From the IMG/VR virus record IMGVR_UViG_3300029922_000029, positions 1 through 64,000 of that record: a stretch of 64,000 bases of DNA, one strand, 5' to 3'. The notes beneath the pieces are model-generated. The model made no database searches. It saw nothing but the letters and a program-made list of their open reading frames with translations, and was not told the origin of the DNA. The translations under genes and the position numbers were made by a program. Source of the DNA: a virus. Positions 13,424 to 42,783 of the stretch are shown here, in pieces. The first letter of the stretch is position 1; the number at the start of each line of letters is the position of its first letter.

Positions 13424-14341
13424 GTGCCAGTCAGATGTGAATGTAAAACCTGCGGTAAAGTTTTCTTTAAGCCTCCATTTACAGTGAAGGACGGCCGCGG
13501 CCGTTTTTGTTCAAGGGTGTGTCTTTATAAAAACACATCCATCCGACTCAAGGGAAAACCTACTGGAAGACAGCTTTTTGGGTCCGCCGGACCTAACTGG
13601 AGAGGTGGAATACCTCAAAAAGAATGTCCATGGTGCAAAAAATCATTCACGGGAAAGGTCCGTAGTCAGGTCACATGCTCTAGGAGATGCGGCCTTCTTT
13701 TAGGTCAATCCAAGAGGACTGGCGACAATAACGGGGCTAGAAAAAAGAATCCACCAAAACAAAAAGTATGTAGGTCATGTGGAAGGTTGTTTTCTAGGAA
13801 TAACGGTGAGGTTCAGAAGAGAGGTTCTGGAGTATGTCCTGGTGGTGGTAAATATTACTGCTCAAACTCCTGTTCTCAAAAAAAGTTATGGCAAAGTGTT
13901 CGACAAATGCGGATAAATCAAGAATTAAAGTCGCGCGGATTCGATACTGAACTTGAGAAATCCTGGCCTTGGTTAGTTAGTCCATTTAGCAAGAACAAGC
14001 TAAGAGTAGATATATTCCTGGAAAAGTTCAGTCTGGCTATAGAATACGATGGCCGACAGCACTATCAGCAAGCCTTCGCCAAGGGGACAGAAGCCCTAGA
14101 GAAGATACAAAAGAAAGATCAGCATAAAAACAGTACACTTAATTCCAGGGGTTTCTCGGTATTGAGGATTCGTCATTACCCCGTAAACATGCGGCAGTTA
14201 GAAGAGTTTATCCTGCTCTTGCACAAAGAAACTCATAGTGGCCGACCACTTACAGTTGTGGTAAAATCAAATGATGAACTTTTCCAGTGGCTTAAAAAAA
14301 TCCGCTCATATCACTGCCACAAAACGTCACTCCCTCCCTAA
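13424..14341 (+). CDS. Homing-type endonuclease with zinc knuckles
   Basis: 305 aa, GTG start right after the previous stop. Three or four treble-clef-like Cys modules (CKTCGKVF...CSRVC, CPWCKKSF...CSRRC, CRSCGRLF...CSNSC) precede a C-terminal nuclease fold: LRVDIFLEKFSLAIEYDGRQ and RGFSVLRIRHYP match EDxHD/Vsr-like (PD-(D/E)XK superfamily) endonucleases. Codons are visibly more A/T-rich than neighbours, which suggests a mobile gene. It may be a free-standing homing nuclease. Confidence 0.75.
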   Translation: MPVRCECKTCGKVFFKPPFTVKDGRGRFCSRVCLYKNTSIRLKGKPTGRQLFGSAGPNWRGGIPQKECPWCKKSFTGKVRSQVTCSRRCGLLLGQSKRTGDNNGARKKNPPKQKVCRSCGRLFSRNNGEVQKRGSGVCPGGGKYYCSNSCSQKKLWQSVRQMRINQELKSRGFDTELEKSWPWLVSPFSKNKLRVDIFLEKFSLAIEYDGRQHYQQAFAKGTEALEKIQKKDQHKNSTLNSRGFSVLRIRHYPVNMRQLEEFILLLHKETHSGRPLTVVVKSNDELFQWLKKIRSYHCHKTSLPP

Positions 14342-15075: not shown

Positions 15076-15490
15076 TGGTTGAGGTGGGGTGAATCGAACA
15101 CCCGTCCGAAATCTATCCAATCGACTTTCTACACATGCTTTGCCACAGTTTTGATTCTCGTGGCCCGAAATAGGGACGACCTGGCTTTCGCTAGACCTTC
15201 CTCCACCATCCGGTTTTTTAGCCCCAGACCGGCAACAGGGCTTCGGATTAATACTGGCCTTACGGCCTTCATCATCGCGGAAGCGCGCGATTTTTGCCGG
15301 ATTCCTTTGACGGGCTCTCGGCGCCCCGCTACCTAATTACTTAGGCGGCTTTGGCGACTTCCACAACCCGGCGGGCTGCGAAGTCGACCACGATCACATT
15401 GTCAGTCTGTGAATGCCCATTTTTAGGTGGTCCTAGGCGCCACCGCATGCAAGTCGATTTTCAAAGATCCCGTCGAAACCTTTCACCCCA
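15076..15490 (-). ncRNA. ssrA: tmRNA (transfer-messenger RNA)
   Basis: 415 nt. The 5' end TGGGGTGAAAGGTTTCGACG and 3' end with GGGTGTTCGATTCACCC plus encoded CCA match one-piece tmRNA. The acceptor TGGGGTG pairs with CACCTCA, followed by A-CCA. The early TTGCATGC block and the tag reading frame are in the standard order. The tag ends VVDFAARRVVEVAKAA-stop (stop complement at 15341-15343), followed by extra stops; the resume codon is probably ACT. It rescues stalled ribosomes. The AKAA end, not ALAA, and the long tag are unusual. Confidence 0.92.
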
Positions 15491-24967: not shown

Positions 24968-25167
24968 GAGCACCGCATTAAAAACCACTTTGCACATCTA
25001 TTTATCGGACTGATTAAATCAGGATTGATTCGGCGCTCTGGCTGAATTGCTGTGTTTTTAATCCCGACTGGTTTCCTCAACAACAGCATGCACCCAAAAA
25101 GTTGGGTGCAGATTATGACTTTCAACTTACTGAGAGCATTCAGTAACGCAGTGCTGCGCACCCAATG

Positions 25168-25204
25168 CACCCAACTTTTACTACTAGAGAGCAAGTTTAT
25201 AGGG
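25168..25204 (+). repeat. 37-bp inverted repeat, left arm
   Basis: A perfect 37-bp inverted copy lies at 25405-25441, 200 bp away. The arm begins with the iteron CACCCAACTTTTACTACTAG and ends AAGTTTATAGGG. Confidence 0.9.
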
Positions 25205-25404
25205 GGTATGAATCTTCACCCAACTCCCCAGTTCTAGTATTGTACGTTCAACAGGGTTTTCTAACTCATAATATACTACCTTTCAGATCAACTATACACC
25301 ATTACCCTATATAGCTTAGTGTTATCACTTGGCTAGGCAATGACTCAGTGTATATAGAGTAACCGTTTGAATTGGTTTCTACGCATTGTGTTGATGATTC
25401 TTTT

Positions 25405-25441
25405 CCCTATAAACTTGCTCTCTAGTAGTAAAAGTTGGGTG
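25405..25441 (-). repeat. 37-bp inverted repeat, right arm
   Basis: Exact reverse complement of 25168-25204. The two could extrude a cruciform around the A/T-rich centre. Confidence 0.9.
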
Positions 25442-25540
25442 TTTGGGTGCACGAGTACTTATCTATTTGAAATGATTCAGTTCATCTGCACCCAACCCAG
25501 TTGGGTGCACGATTTGTTGATTGAACCACTCGCCCATAGC

Positions 25541-25765
25541 ACAGTCCTGTCTCCCTGGAGTCAAGACTGTAATCAGCCCGACGCTTCCTCTTTGGGGCCT
25601 CTGATTTGCCCTAGGAGCCCGCGCATGTCATGATGAGAAGTGTGAGGTCGCCTGGCCACGTGATTGGCCAACCACGGACTCCCTGGGCCCCGGGAAGAGG
25701 GATAATCTAGGTGCCGGGGCATTCACTCCGGGGGCGGCCGCCACACAAGATAACGAGGTGCAGCA
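25541..25765. other. GC-rich gap of unclear role
   Basis: No gene seen. GGGGCC (25595 region) can pair with GGCCCC (25690 region), and GGCC-ACGTGATT-GGCC makes a small hairpin, so it may hold a structured RNA or leader for the gene at 25766. Confidence 0.3.
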
Positions 25766-36307: not shown

Positions 36308-37663
36308 ATGATTATTGGATTGACCGACAAACCCGTTATTCGCCGTGATGGTAAAATCCGCTGTGGTACCGGCCCAAAAACGGGCGGCTTCAAGAACTCC
36401 CCTCACTTCCTGCTCCGCGATGCCGAGCAGCTCATTCCAGTCCTGGGCGCCGAACCCACCGAGATCTTCTTCACCTTCCACTCGGATAATCCAAGTGAGG
36501 TCGCCAAGATCGATCTTCGCTGGTACAGCCAGACCAAGCTCCTCTGCCAGTCCATGCACAACACGACGGACAAGACGAAGCCAATTGGCCAGTGGGCCGT
36601 CTACCGCGGGCAGAACGAAGTTCCTGGAATGACGCAAGAGCCCTACCTCGGACTTGCCCGTACCCGGAAGCGCCAATGTGATTACAAGGGCTGCGCTCAA
36701 TACCAAACCGGTGACTGCGGCGAGCACTTGTTCCTCAACATCATGATCCCGCAGTACAGCATGGGCTCAATCTTCACGCTCGACTCGGTCTCAATTCTGG
36801 CCGTCGTCAATGCGCTCGGACTGTTCGAGAAGGCCGGAACCCAGCATGGCGGCAAGTTTTCGGGCGAGATCTATCGCATGTTCAAGAAAGAAGTCGAGTC
36901 TGAATTCTTCGATACGAACGCCGGTAAGGACGTGAAGCGGAAGCAGCTCGTGGTTCAGTTTGCTCAAGTCAACTATCAGGACTATATCACCAGGTTTGGA
37001 AACAAGATCAGCCCAGAGAACATGCATGCACTCGAGGCATTACGGGCGCGTGGGCACGTCGGGAATCGAAGCATCTATTCCTTGGCATCGGATCTCAGTC
37101 GCCAACAAGAACCTCTCGCATTGGTCGATCACAGCTTCGAAGAAGATCTTGAAGCTCTGCCATCACCAGAACAAGTCTCTGCTCCCCTGACTCCGCTGGG
37201 GGGTGGTGATGACAAAGCCATTAAAGACCGAGGAAACCATCCTGCTCTCGCCGCTCTGTTCGTGGAGCTCTCAACACTTGCAAAGGTGGATAATTCAGAG
37301 CTCAACCGATACAACGTGGCGAAGACCGTAAACAGTGTCGAGAACCTCGCCACTTATTTGAAAGCCAAGATTGCCGAACACAAGAAGCGACTCGCACTCA
37401 AAGAAGGTCCGGTTGTCAGTCCGCATTCTCACACACCTGCTCATGTCACGGGCACCGCTCTACCAGCCGGATCCGTTCAATCAGCGAGACCAGCAGGACA
37501 ATCGCAACCAGCAGGATTAGCGCAGGCCAAGCCGCAACCAGCCGCGGGCCCAGCACAGTCTGTCGTCAGCAAGCCAACCGGTGCGCCCGTAGTCGTGCCT
37601 GCCGGTACGCCCATCCCAGGGGCAGCCCAAAAGGTTGCTTCCATCGTAAGTCCTTTATTCTAA
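36308..37663 (+). CDS. gp3-like (recombination directionality-type) protein
   Basis: 451 aa. The N-terminal ~230 residues (VIRRDGKIRCGTG, FLLRDAEQLIPVLGAEPTEI, CDYKGCAQYQTGDCG with zinc-type Cys, YSMGSIFTLDSVSILAVVNA) weakly resemble the phage gp3-like recombination directionality factor family. The last ~100 residues are Ala/Pro/Gln-rich repeats. The match is by pattern memory only. Confidence 0.45.
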   Translation: MIIGLTDKPVIRRDGKIRCGTGPKTGGFKNSPHFLLRDAEQLIPVLGAEPTEIFFTFHSDNPSEVAKIDLRWYSQTKLLCQSMHNTTDKTKPIGQWAVYRGQNEVPGMTQEPYLGLARTRKRQCDYKGCAQYQTGDCGEHLFLNIMIPQYSMGSIFTLDSVSILAVVNALGLFEKAGTQHGGKFSGEIYRMFKKEVESEFFDTNAGKDVKRKQLVVQFAQVNYQDYITRFGNKISPENMHALEALRARGHVGNRSIYSLASDLSRQQEPLALVDHSFEEDLEALPSPEQVSAPLTPLGGGDDKAIKDRGNHPALAALFVELSTLAKVDNSELNRYNVAKTVNSVENLATYLKAKIAEHKKRLALKEGPVVSPHSHTPAHVTGTALPAGSVQSARPAGQSQPAGLAQAKPQPAAGPAQSVVSKPTGAPVVVPAGTPIPGAAQKVASIVSPLF

Positions 37664-42266: not shown

Positions 42267-42783
42267 ACCGTCTGAAATTCTTGATGAGTACCGCGACCGA
42301 TATCCTGAACCAGAGCATGACTGGCGTTTCCGGGCCGGGCGAATGGCCGAGCAAATGGCGATGCTTGGTACTGACCTATTGCAGGCGCAGAAGTTACTTA
42401 CTAAGGCACGACATCAGCGGGACTCCCTTGCGGTGACGTTAGTTGACGCTCAGAGGGAGCGCCTCACCGCCGAGTCCAAGCTGGACTCGGCCAATCGAAT
42501 CATCGGCGAGCAGCTTGCAACGATTGCGGTTCTGAATCGAATCAAGCCGAGTCCCGATACGAGTAGGCTGATCAAGGCCGCTAAAGCGTTGCTTCAGAAC
42601 TACGAGAAGTGCCCGCAGAACCCGCACAATGACCCGACGATCCGCCGCAGATACCTCGATGGTTTGCGGGACGCGTTAGTGCAGACCGAAAAGGCCTGCG
42701 ATGCTTGCATCGATGCGGGCTCTGGCATGACCGGCCAATCTATGAAATGTCCCGCACACTCCGCGAAGGAGTGCAATCGATGA
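42259..42783 (+). CDS. Coiled-coil hypothetical protein, 174 aa
   Basis: 8-base overlap. Central coiled coil (AQKLLTKARHQRDSLAVTLV), a later helix (SRLIKAAKALLQNYEKC) and a C-terminal Cys cluster (CDACID...CPAH). Not recognised. Confidence 0.65.
   Translation: MSKPSEILDEYRDRYPEPEHDWRFRAGRMAEQMAMLGTDLLQAQKLLTKARHQRDSLAVTLVDAQRERLTAESKLDSANRIIGEQLATIAVLNRIKPSPDTSRLIKAAKALLQNYEKCPQNPHNDPTIRRRYLDGLRDALVQTEKACDACIDAGSGMTGQSMKCPAHSAKECNR

Follow-up and report, generated by a model that had tools for sequence, protein, structure and literature searches.

The window analysed here, the first 64,000 bases of a viral contig of 108,699 bp (IMG/VR record IMGVR_UViG_3300029922_000029) from a phage labelled G000, contains a non-coding gap of 798 bp (24968-25765), within which lies array A, a repeat array examined here as a candidate replication origin. 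The original prediction, made from the sequence alone, had described nine CACCCAA/TTGGGTG heptamers and a perfect 37-bp inverted repeat in about 800 bp of non-coding DNA with an A/T-rich centre. All of these features were recovered, with the heptamers at 25091-25507 and the richest 80 bp (68% AT) starting at 25257. The predicted symmetry applies to eight of the heptamers, which mirror one another about ~25,304, but the ninth (25217, + strand) has no mirror partner, giving a 4+4+1 arrangement (Table 1). The heptamer occurs 18 times in the window, compared with 7.4 +/- 2.9 copies expected, and none of 100 shuffled sequences reached 18. Nine of these 18 copies are inside 25091-25507; when the whole contig was simulated 20 times with a Markov model, five copies per 600 bp was the most that any 7-mer attained. 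The two arms of the inverted repeat are separated by 200 nt. When aligned with its own reverse complement, array A scored 74 (best tiled window, 78), compared with 32 for the next-best tiled window elsewhere in the contig and a maximum of 30 among 1,471 random windows, which makes it the most self-inverse 490-bp stretch across the whole 108.7-kb contig.

Table 1. Features of array A and the gene for the candidate initiator (positions in the window)
Feature	Position	Strand	Remarks
Array A, whole conserved element	25045..25514		self-BLAST against array B; self-inverse almost end to end
Left outer palindromic heptamer pair, TGCACCCAAAAAGTTGGGTGCA	25089..25110		heptamers 25091+/25102-
Left inner tandem heptamer pair, 9-bp period	25159..25174	+	heptamers 25159+/25168+
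Left arm of perfect 37-bp inverted repeat, ending TTTATAGGG	25168..25204	+	
Unpaired ninth heptamer and 46-bp block nearly identical in array B (CACCCAACTCCCCAGT.CTAGTATTGTACGTTCAACAGGGTTTT)	25217..25262	+	
Most A/T-rich 80 bp of core, possible melting region	25257..25336		68% AT; only 0.47% of 80-bp windows in the contig are as rich
Right arm of perfect 37-bp inverted repeat	25405..25441	-	
Right inner tandem heptamer pair, 8-bp period	25435..25449	-	heptamers 25435-/25443-
Right outer palindromic heptamer pair, TGCACCCAACCCAGTTGGGTGCA	25487..25509		heptamers 25489+/25501-
Candidate initiator, primase-helicase, N-terminus cut by contig start	29..2731	+	profile and fold matches

Beyond the end of the window, the contig carries an inverted second copy, array B (contig 100265-100722; L002:16265-16722). 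Self-BLAST aligned 25045-25514 with 100722-100265 (inverted, 69.5% over 479 bp, E 4.5e-42) and identified this pair as the contig's only long-range interspersed repeat of this kind, and a whole-contig scan found nine further heptamers at contig 100189-100677. The two arrays align well in opposite orientation only. Their best-preserved shared stretch, ~46 bp long, starts at the unpaired ninth heptamer; one half of array B is well preserved and the other half poorly. Array B retains 21 bp of the 37-bp arm exactly, and the arm motif is absent from the rest of the contig. Neither low-stringency BLAST nor a scan of intergenic gaps detected a third copy on the contig, with ~65-70 kb of the genome outside it. 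The contig is judged to be a genome fragment lacking that ~65-70 kb because its major-capsid relatives include near-complete phages of 175-182 kb. A tandem repeat with ~72-bp shifts is present within its last open reading frame (contig 108286-108699, L003), and tandem repeats were also found at both contig ends of two relatives, G015 and G024. Since related contigs too end in this way, the assemblies probably break at terminal tandem repeats.

BLASTN of the array sequence against cultured phages returned no match. The exact 21-bp arm and a 21-bp core block were without match in IMG/VR, the arm also in GTDB genomes, and the palindromic box pair was found in five IMG/VR contigs, each with one isolated hairpin, terminator-like where judged, and no array. 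No relatives were retrieved from IMG/VR with the SbcC and helicase proteins as queries; relatives were gathered by the major capsid protein. Four of them (G012, G013, G015 and G020) have an interspersed inverted pair at the two gene neighbourhoods seen in G000, the array B position lying between the terminase gene and a homolog of a 383-aa gene, and the array A position beside a 344-aa gene and/or the SbcC gene. The sequences of the pairs have diverged past BLASTN detection between the compared genomes, and the boxes differ by phage (GCCACTT in G020, ATGTG(C/T)A in G015, GTTACAAA in G012), with G013 displaying weak repeats only. Position and orientation that are kept, elements that are alike within a genome and a box that changes between genomes form a pattern that would be expected if the sites were all recognised by a single protein co-evolving with them. 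In the 180-kb phage G024, a single 248-bp stretch (42463-42710) matches its own reverse complement at 73% identity and may be a solitary element of this type.

Dispersed copies with long internal inverted repeats might also be produced by a small mobile element, similar to a miniature inverted-repeat transposable element (MITE), or by a recombination or inversion site present in few copies, and the window encodes a protein with a domain like the recombination directionality factor Gp3 (36308-37663). We regard such an origin of the arrays as very improbable. MITE positions would be expected to vary between relatives, but these elements keep their positions in five phages and across distant phages, their copy number is fixed per lineage, and the five two-copy phages (G000, G012, G013, G015 and G020) all share one relative orientation of the pair. 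Moreover, the perfect 37-bp arms are internal rather than at the element ends, and Pfam scans detected no transposase or integrase family. Homology between the two arrays tapers off gradually, with no sharp border.

Self-BLAST of more distantly related genomes identified exactly five interspersed elements of ~200-300 bp in each of four metagenomic phages (G005, G007, G008 and G009) and in Salmonella phage Arash, and Vibrio phage D181 has three near-palindromic elements. Those of Arash lie at 26.7, 66.5, 100.2, 138.6 and 173.4 kb. Elements of G008 and G009 correspond one-to-one as best matches. The gaps between elements are 31-41 kb in the multi-copy phages, with the exception of G007 (25-42 kb). 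The chance that random placement would yield so large a smallest gap was 2e-5 for Arash, 3e-5 for G005, 8e-5 for G009, and 0.006 for both G007 and D181, in tests that are not independent given the common ancestry of the genomes. Among the two-copy phages, the G013 pair is antipodal (49.9% of the circle, P 0.001), and the pairs of G012 (46%, P 0.08) and G015 (43%, P 0.15) are less even. The elements also share their anatomy. Box pairs with an 8-9-bp period adjoin the A/T core, and those of G000 and D181 are mirror-oriented; a tandem pair of the left inner type is also found in D181, G020 and Arash; and a single layout recurs in all five Arash copies (-85(-), +45(+), +54(+) and +101(-) relative to the core centre). 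In each of the eight genomes measured, the cores rank in the top 0-0.9% of A/T-rich 80-bp windows. An intergenic A/T-rich region, predicted to melt, beside putative initiator boxes, as looked for in origins generally, is present.

Each of the 38 elements, from 11 phages in total, is intergenic, and the genes around them are tandem, divergent or convergent, with no fixed orientation. Because of this variety, a promoter or operator as the common function is disfavoured, and with it the large cruciform operator that the original prediction had offered as an alternative. A regulatory role, with repressors or activators binding the boxes and promoters (TTTATAGGG) located in the arms, would agree with the fact that each of the two G000 arrays is upstream of a gene, the relative orientation being the same for both, and with the helix-turn-helix families in the proteome; it is nevertheless improbable, as convergent genes flank some of the elements (in G005, G008, G009, G015 and D181), the confinement of the arm motif to the arrays speaks against a general phage promoter, and the even spacing would be left unexplained. 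Identification of TTTATAGGG as a T7-type promoter was considered and rejected, with zero copies outside the arrays.

The near-even spacing, which would be useful for genome folding or segregation, and the mirror boxes could also fit multi-copy sites at which a phage protein organises, partitions or packages the genome, that is, centromere-like, looping or packaging sites rather than origins. Array B and the terminase gene are ~3.5 kb apart, and in D181 the distance between one element and the terminase gene is ~0.8 kb, although a terminase gene is near only one of the copies. We consider such a role unlikely, if slightly less so than a regulatory one, since A/T-extreme cores are more typical of origins and Pfam scans revealed no ParB-type or other partition family.

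The 5' end of the contig encodes a candidate initiator (29-2731), whose family has a full-length size of ~1,130-1,176 aa in most complete relatives. Profile matches of this protein family indicated an archaeo-eukaryotic primase domain (Pfam AEP-TOTE, 9e-45; PDB 7nqd, 4e-38) fused to a helicase domain that matches the replication initiator of SaPIbov1 (PDB 8tch, 3.6e-10). In a fold search, a predicted structure of low overall confidence (pLDDT 65, pTM 0.44) again had 8tch (4e-8) as its top match, followed by the SCCmec helicase Cch (5dgk, 3.5e-7); the TM-scores were low. The last ~130 modelled residues have a helix-strand pattern that would be compatible with a winged helix. In Arash and D181, the helicase-like part is instead joined to a primase of the Toprim type, and because of this the replication enzyme may differ between sub-lineages.

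Taken together, arrays A and B are probably two copies of the G000 replication origin. The origin proposal, which had cited an iteron/initiator system, is still the best fit and is much strengthened by the comparative analysis because element positions are conserved while the boxes change, the 2-5 copies are near-evenly spaced, the cores are A/T-extreme, and a primase-helicase of the SaPI-Rep type is present. Several observations weigh against it. GC skew keeps its sign at both arrays and follows no consistent pattern in other phages, a clear sign change being seen only at the A-type element of G013; owing to the unchanged skew at array A, the assignment stays a suggestion from sequence comparison. 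The original prediction had said that an unchanged skew or coverage together with an equal heptamer density elsewhere would refute it; the skew is indeed unchanged, but heptamer density is far from equal. In addition, array B has an own-reverse-complement score of 20 and has lost much of its symmetry, the pair was not seen in relatives G021, G022 and G024 and is weak in G004 and G025, the primase of Arash and D181 is of another type, and the candidate initiator gene ends ~22 kb before the start of array A, whereas SaPI origins are directly downstream of rep.

If the arrays are origins, the initiator, most likely the primase-helicase encoded at the contig start, would bind the heptamers via a C-terminal DNA-binding domain and load on both sets of boxes, forming two facing assemblies, one per side. 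These would melt the A/T-rich core, and the two helicase-primase assemblies would then depart in opposite directions, providing a bidirectional start. Several matched, spread-out origins would leave each fork a similarly short stretch to copy.

Parts of this arrangement are known from other systems. In herpes simplex virus, oriS and oriL have UL9 boxes mirror-oriented around an A/T core and are present in several copies per genome, as are the elements described here, but the virus is eukaryotic, its initiator is unrelated, and its copies are unevenly spaced. Phage P4, a satellite of ~11 kb, has the primase-helicase initiator alpha and two separate iteron-bearing cis sites, ori and crr, a few kb apart, and thus resembles G000 in combining a primase-helicase with two such sites, but is not known to have a mirror layout of this size or even spacing. 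More than one origin per genome is also found in phage SPP1, and likewise in phage T4 (reviewed in PMC3016281), but the origins of these phages are not known to be near-identical mirror elements at even spacing. The alpha protein of P4 and its cognate site are mentioned together with the replicons of phage-inducible chromosomal islands (PICI), including Staphylococcus aureus pathogenicity islands (SaPI), in PMC6092414. In known island origins, two iteron sets flank an A/T-rich region, and this type of origin was described as unique to islands (PMC6092414). SaPI Rep reads the origin iterons via its C-terminal domain (PMC7581432), and primase and Rep are fused in some cases (PMC6092414, PMC7581432). 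The Rep helicase of these islands is homologous to the helicase part of the G000 candidate, so that a Rep-type initiator helicase is encoded in the same genome as the arrays. The island replicons differ in having one origin per small satellite, directly downstream of rep, while here the genome of a large phage has 2-5 copies, well away from the gene for the enzyme. Nor does G000 itself resemble an island, as terminase and major head protein genes are present and the Pfam scans found no integrase.

Other genes on the contig include a tmRNA gene (15076-15490, - strand) with the tag peptide GHSQTDNVIVVDFAARRVVEVAKAA, HNH/homing-type endonuclease genes inserted among other genes (13424-14341, + strand; contig 64111-64830, + strand), and a gene for a macro-domain protein adjoining the terminase gene (contig 98015-98632, - strand). 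Likely anti-defence genes encode a CBASS inhibitor Acb3 (2.8e-43), an anti-Pycsar Apyc1-like protein and a Thoeris anti-defence Tad2-like protein; these matches concern proteins within 29-62198 and L002 (alignments A9 and A10) and apply at the family level, not per gene.

No description of evenly spaced multi-copy phage origins was found in the open-access literature, and the near-evenly spaced multi-copy arrangement appears to be undescribed in the searchable open literature. The broader proposal, that this large-phage lineage uses several matched, near-evenly spaced origins of the SaPI kind (two, three or five by sub-lineage) that are alike within a genome while their boxes change between genomes, has about an even chance of being right. 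Because the five-copy version is present in the isolated Salmonella phage Arash and the three-copy version in the sequenced Vibrio phage D181, it can be tested directly. If correct, it would link island-type origins to large phages and would reveal a natural multi-origin phage chromosome, in which copying is started from several matched sites at once. Such phages would offer a compact natural system for understanding why genomes have several origins, how the spacing of origins is selected, and how distant origins stay identical in sequence while their initiator changes.
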